A DNA stretch of 64,000 nucleotides from Thioalkalivibrio versutus. Its GTDB lineage: Bacteria; Pseudomonadota; Gammaproteobacteria; Ectothiorhodospirales; Ectothiorhodospiraceae. The notes under the pieces were generated by a model, which made no database searches, had not been told where the DNA came from, and was given only the letters and a program-made list of their open reading frames with translations. The stretch is from positions 1-64,000 of the forward strand of contig NZ_MVAR01000026.1 of the NCBI RefSeq assembly GCF_001999325.1. Reading direction: 5' to 3'. Position numbers and translations under genes: made by a program. Within the stretch, counting starts at the first letter, position 1; each line of letters begins with the position of its first letter. Shown piece by piece: positions 46,457 through 50,718 of this stretch.

Positions 46457-47824
46457 TCAGGCGCGCACGGCCTTTTCGATCCCCTCGGTCATCACCTCGA
46501 CGAGGAAGTCGATCTGTTCCTCGGTGATCACGTACGGCGGCATCAGATAGCTCACGTTCCCCAGTGGTCGCAACAGCGCACCGCGTGTCAGGCCGTGGCG
46601 ATAGATGTGCAGTCCGCGACGTTCCTGCCACGGATACGGGGTGCGCCGGGACTTGTCCTGCACCAGTTCCACCGCTGCAATCATGCCGTGCTGACGCACG
46701 TCGGCGACATGCGGATGTTCCCGCAAGGATTCAAGTCGTTTCTCGATATGGGCGGCAAGTTCCCGGTTTCTCTCAAGAACGGGATCGGAATCGAAGATGT
46801 CCAGTGTGGCAAGTGCGGCCCTGCACGCGAGCGGATTCCCGGTATAGGAATGCGAATGCAGGAACATGTTGAGTTTTTCGTAATCGTCGTAAAACGCCTG
46901 GTAAATGGTATCTGTGGTCAACACGGCTGCCATGGGCAGATAGCCGGCGGTCAGGCCCTTGGACAGGCACATGAAATCGGGCGTGATTGGCCCCTGTTCG
47001 CAGGCGAACAGCGTGCCCGTGCGCCCGAAGCCGACTGCGATCTCGTCGGCGATCAGGTGGACGCCGTGACGGTCGCAGGCTTCGCGCAGTAGCCGCAGGT
47101 ATTCAGGGTCGTACATGCGCATGTGGCCGGCGCACTGGACCAGGGGCTCCACGATGACCGCGGCGGCCTCATCGGCATGTTTCGCCAGCGCCTGTTCCAT
47201 GTGGTCGAACTGGCGACGCGCCACATCGGCGCAGGTTTCGCCGTCTTCGCGGTCGAAACAATCCGGTGCCGGCACGGTGATGACGTCCAGCATCAGCGGT
47301 TCGTAGGTTGCGCTGTACAGCGGTACATCGCTCACGGACAAGGCGCCCAGGGTCTCGCCGTGGTAGCTGTTGGACAGGCGAATGAAGCGGGTCTTCTGCG
47401 GGCGATCGACGTTGCGCCAGTAGTGAAAGCTCATCTTCAGCGCGACCTCGACCCCGGCGCTGCCGTTGTCCGCCAGGAACACCCGGTCCAGGCCTTCGGG
47501 GGTGATGTCGATCAGGCGTTCGCACAACTCGACCACCGGCTCGTGGGTGCAGCCGGCGAGGATCACATGCTCCAGCCGGTCCAGCTGGTCCTTGACCGCA
47601 TCACCGATGCGCGGGTTGGCGTGACCGAACAGGTTCACCCACCACGAACTGATGGCATCCAGATAGCGATTGCCGTCGAAATCGTACAGCCAGACACCCT
47701 CCCCCCGCTGGATCGGAAGCAGCGGGAGGGTCCCCTCCTCGCCGTAGTCCTTCATCTGGGTGCAGGGATGCCAGAGGGCGCGCAGGTCGCGGTTCTTGAG
47801 GGTGTTGTTATCCATAGGGCGCAT
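46457..47824 (-). CDS. bioA: Adenosylmethionine-8-amino-7-oxononanoate aminotransferase
   Basis: Uses S-adenosylmethionine as amino donor to make 7,8-diaminopelargonate in biotin synthesis. The protein has LWHPCTQMKDY near its start, DFDGNRYLDAISSWWVNLFGHANPRI, FLADNGSAGVEVALKMSFHYW and the PLP lysine in MCLSKGLTAGYLPMAA. These identify it against other class III aminotransferases. The start is uncertain among the ATGs at 47824 and 47815 and a TTG at 47857 that would overlap the upstream stop. It is downstream of the KamA-family gene on the same strand; other bio genes are not in the window. Confidence 0.94.
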   Translation of the reverse strand: MRPMDNNTLKNRDLRALWHPCTQMKDYGEEGTLPLLPIQRGEGVWLYDFDGNRYLDAISSWWVNLFGHANPRIGDAVKDQLDRLEHVILAGCTHEPVVELCERLIDITPEGLDRVFLADNGSAGVEVALKMSFHYWRNVDRPQKTRFIRLSNSYHGETLGALSVSDVPLYSATYEPLMLDVITVPAPDCFDREDGETCADVARRQFDHMEQALAKHADEAAAVIVEPLVQCAGHMRMYDPEYLRLLREACDRHGVHLIADEIAVGFGRTGTLFACEQGPITPDFMCLSKGLTAGYLPMAAVLTTDTIYQAFYDDYEKLNMFLHSHSYTGNPLACRAALATLDIFDSDPVLERNRELAAHIEKRLESLREHPHVADVRQHGMIAAVELVQDKSRRTPYPWQERRGLHIYRHGLTRGALLRPLGNVSYLMPPYVITEEQIDFLVEVMTEGIEKAVRA

Positions 47825-47853: not shown

Positions 47854-49224
47854 TCAATGAGCGGATTCCGCCCTCATCGTGGCCAGCTCGTTCTCGAAGA
47901 AGAAGCGATCTTCGCCGAAGGCGGGTTTGAGCTGATCGAGCCAGGTGGCCTGGTCATCGTAGCGCGCAAAAAACGGCCGCTGGACCCAGTCGGGGTTGCG
48001 TGCCTGGATGAAGCGCAGGACGAAGACCTTTTCACCTTGGATCTCGGCAACGCCCTGGATCTCCACCTTGCCGGGCTCGGCGCTCATTGAGGGGCCGCGG
48101 GCGGTGCGCCCGAGCCCCGAGACCTGTTTCATGGCTTCGCGGTAGATTTCCCAGGCGCGCGCCAGCGGGACCTCGAAGTACCGCCGTGCCCCGGTGTCGC
48201 GTTCGACAAACATGTAGTACGGGATGATCCCGAGGCGTACCTGTTCGCGCCACAGCTCGGCCCAGGCCTCGGCGTCGTCATTGATGTGCCGGAGCAAGGG
48301 CCCCTGGGCGCGAATTTCGGCGCCGGTGTCGCGCACACGGCGGATGGCCTCGTGGGCAATCGGGGTGCGCAGTTCATTCGGATGGTTGTAGTGCGCCATC
48401 AGGGCCACGTGCTTGCCCGCCTCGACCAGCCGTTCCAGTAGACGCAGCAGTTCGTCCGCATCCGAGTCGGTCACGAATCGGTAAGGCCAGAATGTCAGGG
48501 CCTTGGTGCCGATCCGTACGGTCTGTATGTGGGCCAGCTCCGGCTCCAGCAAGGCCTCAAGATAGGCCTTCAGGTGCTTGGTTTTCATTACCATCGGGTC
48601 GCCACCCGTCATCAGAAGGTCGCTGATCTCCGGATGGCCGCGCAGGTAGTCGTGCAGCAACGCGGCATCGGTGCTGGCGATGCGCAGCTCCTTGTCACCG
48701 ACGAACTGGGCCCAGCGGAAGCAGAAGGTGCAATAACTGTGGCAGGTCTGGCCCTGGCCGGGGAAGAACAGCACGGTTTCACGGTACTTGTGCTGGAGGC
48801 CGTTGATGACCTCGCCCGCTTCCTCGCTCGGGCGGTTGAGCTCCATCTGCCCGGCTGGATGCGGGTTGAGCTCCTCGCGCAGCTCGCGCGCGAGGGCCTG
48901 GATCTCGGCCCGCCCTGCCCCTTGGCGATGCAGAACCGCCATACGTTCGAAGGCCTCGGGGGCCAGCATGTCCCGTTGCGGAAAGGTCAGCTGGAAGATT
49001 GGGTCGTCGGGAACCCGGCTCCAGTCGATCAGCTCCTCGATCACGTAGTCATTGACCCGGAACGGAAGAACGCTGGCAACGACCTGCATCTCGAAGCGTA
49101 TGGCCTCGGGCAGGCTGGCCAAGGCCGGGATGCGTTCGATCGAGCGTTCATTAAAGACGCGGAACTCGCGCGGCTCGACCGCACCAAGCTGGGGATCACG
49201 ATAGAACTGGACAACGGAATTCAT
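47854..49224 (-). CDS. KamA-family radical SAM aminomutase, substrate unassigned
   Basis: A 456-aa radical S-adenosylmethionine, PLP-dependent aminomutase-type protein. The [4Fe-4S] motif is CHSYCTFC (C161, C165, C168) and a GGDP motif follows in LLMTGGDPMV. A lysine-2,3-aminomutase-like C-terminus carries the PLP lysine, probably Lys386, in SAEPGK. The residues that bind the lysine side chain in known lysine aminomutases are not conserved: the glycine-rich DAPGGGGK is shortened to SAEPGK and the Asp of YQCD is replaced in FVERD. AGGAG lies 7 bases upstream of the ATG at 49224, ruling out the TTG further up. Length is typical of KamA and much longer than EpmB. Confidence 0.85.
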   Translation of the reverse strand: MNSVVQFYRDPQLGAVEPREFRVFNERSIERIPALASLPEAIRFEMQVVASVLPFRVNDYVIEELIDWSRVPDDPIFQLTFPQRDMLAPEAFERMAVLHRQGAGRAEIQALARELREELNPHPAGQMELNRPSEEAGEVINGLQHKYRETVLFFPGQGQTCHSYCTFCFRWAQFVGDKELRIASTDAALLHDYLRGHPEISDLLMTGGDPMVMKTKHLKAYLEALLEPELAHIQTVRIGTKALTFWPYRFVTDSDADELLRLLERLVEAGKHVALMAHYNHPNELRTPIAHEAIRRVRDTGAEIRAQGPLLRHINDDAEAWAELWREQVRLGIIPYYMFVERDTGARRYFEVPLARAWEIYREAMKQVSGLGRTARGPSMSAEPGKVEIQGVAEIQGEKVFVLRFIQARNPDWVQRPFFARYDDQATWLDQLKPAFGEDRFFFENELATMRAESAH

Positions 49225-49584
49225 CCGCGACTCCTGTGCCGACAAACTGAAATTGGAGTGCCTCGCCGCAGCGATGGGCGAGGATGCGCGTGTATCCCGG
49301 GACGTTCGGGGCGCTCAAGCTCTAGGAATACGGGATGACCATTCGCACGCGAACGGCGTCCGGAAGAGCTGCGAGTAAGATGCTGACCCGTGCCGCTGTC
49401 GATGGGCGGGGTAGCGGGACCTTCAGAAGCCGTTAAATTAACAACTTGAGCGCATTTTCACAACCAGTTCCCGGGCGCGGCTGATGCGCCGGGTGCGCAG
49501 GCGGGCTCCTTCGGCTGCGTCTCTCCGGGTGTTCTAAGCCTCGCCTGACTGGGTTACCCTTTGGCTCCCGCCAAGGAGGATCGC
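49225..49584. promoter_or_regulatory. Divergent intergenic region with candidate promoter
   Basis: There are 360 bases without a gene between the KamA-family gene (minus) and a class V aminotransferase (plus). Its middle holds an AT-rich patch with the perfect palindrome GTTAAATTAAC at 49432-49442. On the minus strand TTGTGA (49458-49463) and TAATTT (49435-49440) are 17 bases apart, a plausible weak promoter overlapping the palindrome. That would leave a leader of about 200 bases for the KamA gene. The rest is GC-rich with no recognisable element. A strong AAGGAGGA (49573-49580) precedes the plus-strand gene. Confidence 0.45.
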
Positions 49585-50718
49585 ATGCACCCGGAGTTTC
49601 CACAGGAAGGGATCATCCACCTCAATCATGCCGCCGTGGGCCCCTGGCCCCGGCGCACCGAGGACGCGGTCTGCCGCTTCGCCCGGGAGAACGTGGCCCA
49701 TGGCTCGCGTGACTACCTGCAGTGGCTGCAGCAAATCGACGCGACGCGGGAACTCGCACGGGCGTTGATCGGGGCGCCGTCCGCAGAGGACATTGCCTTC
49801 GTGAAGAACACGTCCGAGGCGCTGTCGATGGTGGCCTTCGGCCTGGACTGGCAGCCGGGCGACAATGTGGTGTTCCCGGCGCACGAGTTCCCGTCCAATC
49901 GTGTCGTCTGGCTGGCCGCCGCAGAGCGTTTCGGCATCGAGGCGCGCGAGGTCGCCATTGGCGAGGAACCGGAGCGCGACCTGCTGGCCGCATGTGATGC
50001 GCGGACCCGCCTGGTGGCCACCAGTGCTGTGCGCTACGACTCCGGGCTGCGGGTCGACATCCAGGCGCTGGGTGCGGAACTGCGCTCGCGGCGCATCCTG
50101 TTCTGTGTTGATGCGATCCAGCACCTGGGCGCCCTGCCCTTCGATGCCCCGGGTTGCCATGCCGACTTCGTGATGGCCGATGCCCACAAGTGGATGCTGG
50201 CGCCCGAGGGAATCGGGGTGTTCTACGTAAACCCGGAGATCCGCGAACGGCTGACGCTGCAGGAATATGGCTGGAACATGCTGGCGCATGCCGGCGATTT
50301 CTCGAACCCGGGGATCGAGCCCGCCACGAGTGCACGGCGTTTCGAACCGGGCAGTCCGAACATGCTCGGGATTCACGCCCTGCACGCCAGTCTCTCCCTT
50401 CTGCTGGAGGTCGGGCTGGACAGCATCGACCACGAGATCCGCGAGCACTGGCTACATTTGGAAGAAGGCCTGCGTGCGCACGGCTGCCAAATCCTGACAC
50501 CGCGCGGCCGGCGTGCCGGCATCCTGACGTTCCGACCGCCGGTGGATGACCTGGAAGCGCTATACGCGAGGCTTCAGGGGCGCGGCATCCTGTGTGCCAT
50601 GCGAGGCGGCGGGATCCGCTTTGCGCCCCACTTCTACCTGACGCGGGCGCAGATCGACCAGGCGCTGGAGTATCTGGGCGAGGCCATCCGAGAAGCCGGC
50701 GCGGCTACGGTACGCTGA
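49585..50718 (+). CDS. Class V aminotransferase / cysteine desulfurase-like PLP enzyme
   Basis: A 377-aa fold-type I PLP enzyme. It has LNHAAVGPWPRRTEDAV near the start, FVKNTSEALSMVAFGL, VDAIQHLGALPFD, the PLP lysine in MADAHKWMLAPEGIGVFYV, and FRPPVDDLEALYARL toward the end. It resembles SufS/CsdA and isopenicillin epimerase-like proteins. I see no obvious reactive-cysteine loop like the RXGXHCA of desulfurases; the equivalent segment is RGGGIRFAPHFY, the desulfurase-unlike form. Aminotransferase or epimerase activity is therefore more likely. AAGGAGGA sets the ATG at 49585. It is divergent from the KamA-family gene; a shared pathway is possible but unproven. Confidence 0.82.
   Translation: MHPEFPQEGIIHLNHAAVGPWPRRTEDAVCRFARENVAHGSRDYLQWLQQIDATRELARALIGAPSAEDIAFVKNTSEALSMVAFGLDWQPGDNVVFPAHEFPSNRVVWLAAAERFGIEAREVAIGEEPERDLLAACDARTRLVATSAVRYDSGLRVDIQALGAELRSRRILFCVDAIQHLGALPFDAPGCHADFVMADAHKWMLAPEGIGVFYVNPEIRERLTLQEYGWNMLAHAGDFSNPGIEPATSARRFEPGSPNMLGIHALHASLSLLLEVGLDSIDHEIREHWLHLEEGLRAHGCQILTPRGRRAGILTFRPPVDDLEALYARLQGRGILCAMRGGGIRFAPHFYLTRAQIDQALEYLGEAIREAGAATVR

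Follow-up and report, generated by a model that had tools for sequence, protein, structure and literature searches.

The kamA-like gene carried by the window, i.e., the whole 64,000-nucleotide stretch of Thioalkalivibrio versutus DNA analyzed in this work, encodes a probable glutamate 2,3-aminomutase. We consider it rather probable that this predicted radical SAM, PLP-dependent 2,3-aminomutase catalyzes a C2-to-C3 shift of the L-glutamate amino group, which would yield beta-glutamate (3-aminoglutarate), and with the same confidence we regard glutamate as the best single substrate candidate. The protein represents a family of predicted KamA-type 2,3-aminomutases with an Arg/Ser side-chain pocket. 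The features of the locus are collected in Table 1.

Table 1. Features of the kamA locus (positions in the window; LAM, lysine 2,3-aminomutase)
Feature	Position	Strand	Basis
kamA-like ORF, radical SAM/PLP enzyme, 456 aa, ATG start	47854..49224	-	translation, profile and structure matches
AGGAG, Shine-Dalgarno-like, six bases 5′ of the kamA ATG	49231..49235	-	read from sequence
CHSYCTFC (C161, C165, C168), [4Fe-4S] motif	48721..48744	-	sequence/alignment
R170, counterpart of LAM Arg134 (alpha-carboxylate)	48715..48717	-	HMMER alignment; conservation
R342, at position of LAM Asp293	48199..48201	-	HMMER alignment; conservation
S379, at position of LAM Asp330	48088..48090	-	alignment, equal segment length
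K386, PLP lysine (LAM Lys337)	48067..48069	-	alignment; conservation
bioA (DAPA aminotransferase), 41 bp 3′ of kamA if it starts at ATG 47812	46457..47812	-	NF005443
Class V aminotransferase-fold protein, divergent from kamA	49561..50718	+	PF00266, 149.7 bits

The window protein is of the KamA type in the broad sense, as it combines the LAM fold with a CxxxCxxC motif, a PLP lysine and a carboxylate-binding Arg. Its sole sequence match in the PDB at an E value of 0.01 was the LAM structure 2A5H (E 4.1e-23; HMMER). Superposition of a predicted structure on LAM had been proposed in an earlier reading of the sequence only. The AlphaFold2 model (pLDDT 85.4, pTM 0.87; 36 sequences) adopts the LAM fold, 2A5H being the best match with a Z score of 30.4 over 337 aligned residues (rmsd 3.8), and the next-best chain reached 13.4; identity to LAM in structural alignments was 22-23%. 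The protein missed the curated cut-offs of all six NCBIfam KamA-type families scored, namely the broad model TIGR00238 (145.6 bits, cut-off 199.2), AblA_like_2 (121.4 bits, cut-off 396.25), the LAM model TIGR03820 (116 bits, cut-off 525.4), the EpmB model TIGR03821 (110.7 bits, cut-off 369.3), an arginine-type aminomutase model (97.3 bits, cut-off 600) and the model of classical glutamate 2,3-aminomutases (GAM), TIGR04368 (91 bits, cut-off 650). The 2.83-Mb host genome encodes a second KamA protein (L002), which a profile scan identified as EpmB (444.6 bits, cut-off 369.3). An Rfam scan of the 64,000-nt window at the gathering score returned one tRNA and nothing else.

Family relatives are encoded in at least 582 of at least 592 genome contig stretches matched by pattern, and the nearest named relative among the matches listed is Thioalkalivibrio sp. 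ALJ24 (83% identity in the matched segment). Among 299 sampled Pseudomonadota, 11 match at an E value of 1e-80, including the genome of the window itself. A plasmid search with the window protein yielded 131 records, 21 of which cover most of the query. The 19 best (51-58% identity) belong to Burkholderia, Mycetohabitans, Nonomuraea, Amycolatopsis, Nocardia, Rhodococcus and Streptomyces, and 13 of them carry the annotation lysine 2,3-aminomutase, a label that is probably wrong. One plasmid copy, in Nocardia NBC_00511 (L152, 10001-11271), is broken, its two tblastn pieces being annotated as hypothetical proteins. To our knowledge, enzymatic activity is known for no family member, and we recognized no published characterization of a proteobacterial one in the open-licence literature, searched mostly through titles and the beginnings of abstracts.

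The catalytic signatures named in the sequence-only reading are present: C161, C165 and C168 form the radical SAM motif CHSYCTFC, and K386, in SAEPGK, aligns with Lys337 of LAM, which we take to be the PLP lysine. R170 matches Arg134, presumably the residue of LAM that binds the alpha-carboxylate. That reading had also proposed that both aspartates holding the side chain of lysine in LAM are lost, the first in favor of Arg and the second through shortening of its motif. The Arg was borne out, since PYYIYQCD of LAM (2A5H) pairs with PYYMFVER of the window protein in a gap-free HMMER alignment that puts Asp293 opposite Arg342. The shortening was not: the segments G321-K337 of LAM and G370-K386 of the window protein both comprise 17 residues, and a MAFFT alignment of the window protein with LAM-like proteins is gap-free across the second motif. 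As this motif is of equal length, Asp330 corresponds to S379. Both aspartates are thus indeed replaced, one by Arg342 and the other by Ser379.

We analyzed the conservation of these positions in the best 80 of the at least 592 stretches, plus the window. Arg occupies position 342 in all 81 rows, which include many close relatives. The same holds for the 36 rows that remain after thinning at 82% identity and for the 11 members carried on plasmids (L142-L145 and L147-L153, of which two belong to one species and one is the broken copy). Position 379 is Ser in 79 and Val in 2 of the 81 rows; among the 11 plasmid-borne members it is Ser in 4 and Val in 7. LAM-like controls have Asp at both positions in all 19 loci (L122-L140), a label that rests on best score, as the three loci scanned reach 417-442 bits and lie under the LAM cut-off. 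EpmB-type controls have Asp and Glu at the two positions in five of five loci (L002, L039-L041 and L158). The exchange of the pocket residues in the window family is therefore no chance effect, because the LAM-like and EpmB-type loci keep the acidic pair. Two more arginines, R373 and R376, do not vary within the thinned set; their counterparts in LAM are Val and Phe.

The residues that flank R342 in the family, E341 and D343, are invariant as well, and together with the annotation of most of the best plasmid records this would fit a lysine 2,3-aminomutase in which one or the other binds the epsilon-ammonium group. We hold this to be very unlikely, as no gap interrupts the alignment between PYY and the next Pro, so that E341 and D343 match Cys292 and Leu294 of LAM. 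Moreover, lysine would be repelled by an Arg at the side-chain site, and the protein scores far under the LAM cut-off. In the sequences and literature searched, we met no proven lysine aminomutases that form a clade with the motifs of the window family.

From the motifs, the alignment, the fold match and the conservation, we infer the substrate, the reaction and the role of R342 as follows. The [4Fe-4S] cluster on C161, C165 and C168 would cleave SAM, and K386 would hold PLP, which would form an external aldimine with glutamate. R170 would hold the alpha-carboxylate as Arg134 does in LAM, and R342 would bind the side-chain carboxylate from the position of Asp293, its greater length offsetting the shorter side chain of the substrate. 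S379, replaced by Val in many actinobacterial members, would need no charge. In glutamate 2,3-aminomutases, the lysine-binding aspartates are described as replaced throughout by lysine and asparagine (PMC3965090).

The phylogeny of KamA proteins, another check proposed in the earlier reading, separated the window family from LAM and EpmB. In a first tree of 61 rows its branch measured 5.07 with a support of 100/100, and in a tree of 41 rows, built without the long-branch rows L146, L154 and L141, it formed its own clade, again supported at 100/100, on a branch of 4.1 changes per column; both trees use part of the rows fetched. The family is thus a clade set apart, at a large distance from both LAM and EpmB. 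Of the loci obtained, L175 and L176, which encode candidate GAMs, come nearest to classical GAM; they reach 632 and 608 bits to TIGR04368 (cut-off 650) and have Lys and Thr at the two Asp positions. They belong to a clade of 14 rows that also holds LAM-like proteins (99/98, and 94/98 at an inner fork), and an AU test rejected their grouping with the window family (p 0.031), in the presence of long branches of which the program warns. As these GAM-like proteins nest among LAM-like ones, apart from the window family, the basic residue at the Asp293 position probably arose at least twice.

Two of the excluded rows are distant KamA-type proteins of 32-34% identity, encoded on a Rhizobium etli plasmid (L146, 7755-8897) and in Paenibacillus (L154, 7989-9137). 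Both carry Arg at the Asp293 position (FQGRP and FINRP, respectively), with MSH..GK, and the former lies near a gene annotated as ectoine synthase and many transposases. The third, the KamA-type protein L141 (1507-2577), differs from the other classes described here in having Glu in place of Asp293 and a shorter second motif, VAT--NIGK.

We also examined the gene neighborhood. The bioA product scores 824 bits to NF005443 (cut-off 729) when scanned from a TTG at 47857. The class V gene was found in all 21 congeners searched, beside kamA or bioA, with or without kamA; its product falls far below the NCBIfam cut-offs listed. kamA is present in 18 of 29 congeneric genomes (two matches being partial) and absent from 11. 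In the nine kamA-less congeners checked, the fragmented G003 and G023 being left out, the gene is cleanly missing and the class V gene and bioA adjoin at about 0.1-0.25 kb. Conversely, kamA adjoins the class V gene in the 12 checked of the 18 kamA-bearing congeners. As the kamA-bioA order also occurs in Thioalkalivibrio ALJ24, in Ectothiorhodospira and in L033, the pattern suggests loss rather than gain. That kamA comes and goes singly fits an enzyme acting on a central metabolite without a dedicated partner.

The proximity of kamA and bioA, about 40 bp apart on one strand and in an order shared with those relatives, might point to a radical SAM step tied to biotin synthesis or to SAM-derived amino donors. 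This is extremely improbable and we rejected a functional link, because bioA persists without kamA in the nine congeners checked and proVW genes intervene between the two in two others (G009 and G011); moreover, the adjacency is absent from the other genera viewed. bioA is probably a neighbor unrelated in function.

No operon common to the whole family was found, as no cluster of neighbors occurs in more than 8 of 47 groups assigned by hand (kamA and overlapping ORFs excluded). Neighbors are housekeeping-like in most viewed loci outside the groups described below.

A 3-aminobutyrate macrolactam-type cassette, as judged from its genes, encloses the relative encoded on a plasmid of Streptomyces sp. 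NBC_00334 (L150; 51% identity to the window protein). The gene order comprises a type I PKS, a Pro-iminopeptidase-type hydrolase, KamA, a class I PLP enzyme, an AMP-ligase on the opposite strand and a second type I PKS, followed further along by a malonyltransferase-type enzyme, a free ACP and another AMP-ligase. Such parts are described for macrolactams with beta-amino acid starters (PMC11284099). The best PDB match of the first AMP-ligase is 5JJQ (6.5e-185), ahead of 7DQ5 and 5JJP, and the two have the segment FDFSLLDIGLA in common; 5JJQ is IdnL1, an enzyme for (3S)-3-aminobutyrate (PMC11253843). For incednine, PMC11284099 traces the 3-aminobutyrate unit to glutamate via beta-glutamate and describes beta-glutamate as the substrate of the decarboxylase IdnL3; disrupting the radical SAM gene idnL4 confirmed that this gene takes part in the pathway, though IdnL4 was not observed to be active in vitro. 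By analogy, the class I PLP enzyme beside the NBC_00334 KamA could be the counterpart of IdnL3. In Amycolatopsis AA4, KamA is adjoined by a PLP enzyme 50% identical to that one. The NBC_00334 cluster may encode a further enzyme that is missing from the gene tables of the plasmids, which are incomplete.

Class I PLP enzymes 31-35% identical to that of NBC_00334 are also encoded near kamA in Binatia- and Halieaceae-type loci (L099, L100, L106, L107, L108 and L110). We set this context aside as evidence, the AMP-ligase near the PLP enzyme in L107 being of the exosortase-A-system type (TIGR03098). The cluster on a plasmid of Rhodococcus DK176 (L144) includes a carrier protein, an AMP-ligase, an ATP-grasp protein, a cupin, a SidA/IucD-type monooxygenase and a class I tRNA-ligase-like protein, a set that we take to be typical of hydrazine-type biosynthesis. 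On a Streptomyces cellulosae plasmid (L145), the family member adjoins a type III PKS, enoyl-CoA hydratase-type enzymes and an aminotransferase, presumably similar to dihydroxyphenylglycine pathways.

In Streptomyces, Mycetohabitans and Rhodococcus, family members adjoin genes of NRPS, PKS or comparable biosynthetic systems, and carriers among the best-listed matches include Thauera, Aromatoleum and Nitrosomonas, genera not known as halophiles. Both observations would suit an enzyme of the same reaction whose beta-glutamate is a building block of a peptide, a siderophore or another product and serves no osmotic purpose. We think this unlikely, as kamA of the window and its congeners sits between genes that are kept without it and is lost singly, and the flanking genes scanned there included no biosynthetic cluster.

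Genes for a glutamate-type transporter form a second context. In 11 of 12 loci labeled Halomonas or Billgrantia, a gene for a TAXI-TRAP binding protein lies 3′ of kamA on the same strand. Its start is 48-287 bp downstream in 10 loci, where a fused TRAP permease gene and a universal-stress-protein-like gene follow, and in L121 the contig ends within it. No TAXI match was found in the last 1.1 kb of the twelfth locus, L052. The best match of the Halomonas binding protein is 8S4J (1.1e-117), which we take to be the glutamate-specific VcGluP from a single mention in PMC11574862. In that source, Y45, S75, Q93, E125, Y200 and M201 of VcGluP are reported as tested, with Y45 and Q93 mattering most. 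Counted along the alignment, the first five are kept in the Halomonas protein and M201 is replaced by Val. Across 151 genomes sampled in the family of Halomonas LBP4, 29 have kamA and 124 the TAXI gene. The TAXI gene lies 3′ of kamA on the same strand in 18 of the 29 carriers, within about 0.4 kb in 17 and at 0.9 kb in one; six carriers have instead an MscS-like gene directly 5′ on the same strand, and five have neither within 1.5 kb on each side. These five, the excess of TAXI genes over kamA in the sample and the Val at M201 count against the glutamate reading.

These contexts bear on the identity of the substrate. The enzyme might instead be a 2,3-aminomutase that acts on some other acidic or polar amino acid, such as 2-aminoadipate or a modified glutamate, as an Arg at the Asp293 position fits acidic side chains in general. 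In addition, both Ser and Val occur at the second position, which suggests that recognition is looser, and the Rhodococcus cluster has a lysine-hydroxylase-type gene with no obvious link to glutamate. We nevertheless find another substrate rather improbable, since glutamate is indicated by the macrolactam context as well as by that of TAXI-TRAP. The acidic substrate, e.g., glutamate, that had been proposed from the sequence is well supported, and the residue exchange of GAM, the macrolactam cluster and the TAXI-TRAP and MscS-like neighbors agree with it.

The MscS-like genes in the LBP4 family are 63-100% identical to one beside kamA in Marinospirillum L116, the 100% case probably being the L116 genome itself. 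A different MscS-like gene starts 12 bp 3′ of kamA in L034. The MscS-like genes match MscS models below their cut-offs. In the congeners G009 and G011, a betaine/choline-type ABC transporter (proV-proW) is encoded directly 3′ of kamA. For G009, proV reaches 446 bits (cut-off 326.6), with a permease and a binding protein of the same type below their cut-offs; for G011, proV and proW were found by similarity. ABC ATPases of Halomonas that match proV were not counted, the one scanned, from L120, fitting phosphonate, polyamine and molybdate models better. These counts are not independent events, since a small number of lineages (one TAXI group, two MscS groups and one proVW pair) account for the osmotic links.

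The proposal, also made from the sequence, that beta-glutamate serves as an osmolyte has a more mixed standing: the MscS-like and proVW neighbors speak for it, and it is weakened by a host genus known for another solute and by carriers not known as halophiles. Thioalkalivibrio is known for glycine betaine (PMC8092127). beta-Glutamate is reported in few bacteria, e.g., Nocardiopsis halophila, and the same source mentions early NMR work that argued against a glutamate aminomutase as the origin of beta-glutamate in methanogens (PMC1224877). An osmolyte role is plausible: quite possibly, beta-glutamate serves halophilic hosts as an anionic compatible solute and actinobacterial clusters as a precursor, e.g., of 3-aminobutyrate. 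More tentatively, the family may be a second, independent lineage of glutamate 2,3-aminomutases, with Arg/Ser in place of Lys/Asn, that provides halophilic and haloalkaliphilic Gammaproteobacteria with a compatible solute and was recruited to actinobacterial antibiotic clusters for 3-aminobutyrate.

If the glutamate assignment is correct, a widespread family often labeled lysine 2,3-aminomutase makes beta-glutamate instead, and a candidate gene can be named for the beta-glutamate of bacteria. Glutamate specificity would then have evolved twice on the LAM scaffold, and the family would be a likely source of 3-aminobutyrate starters, for which the chemistry of IdnL4 is unproven. With one gene, one product, and strains with and without kamA in one genus, a simple test is possible.

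The window protein can be compared with four known systems. Like EpmB (TIGR03821), which the same genome also encodes, it is a KamA-type enzyme, but EpmB-type loci retain Asp and Glu, form a separate clade and have a model whose cut-off the window protein does not reach. With LAM (2A5H, TIGR03820) it has in common the fold, the CxxxCxxC motif, the PLP lysine and the carboxylate Arg; it differs in that the two lysine-binding Asp of LAM are Arg and Ser, and in its score below the LAM cut-off. IdnL4, the proposed glutamate 2,3-aminomutase of incednine biosynthesis, is related through the family member of NBC_00334, which takes the corresponding place in a macrolactam cluster of the IdnL1 type, so that IdnL4 may by analogy belong to the window family; this comparison is one of cluster position, and the window gene stands alone, outside any cluster. 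Finally, classical GAM (TIGR04368) shares with the window protein a basic residue in place of the first Asp, a non-acidic one in place of the second and the proposed reaction, but the pair is Lys/Asn in the former and Arg/Ser in the latter, and the low score of the window protein to the GAM model counts against the glutamate reading.
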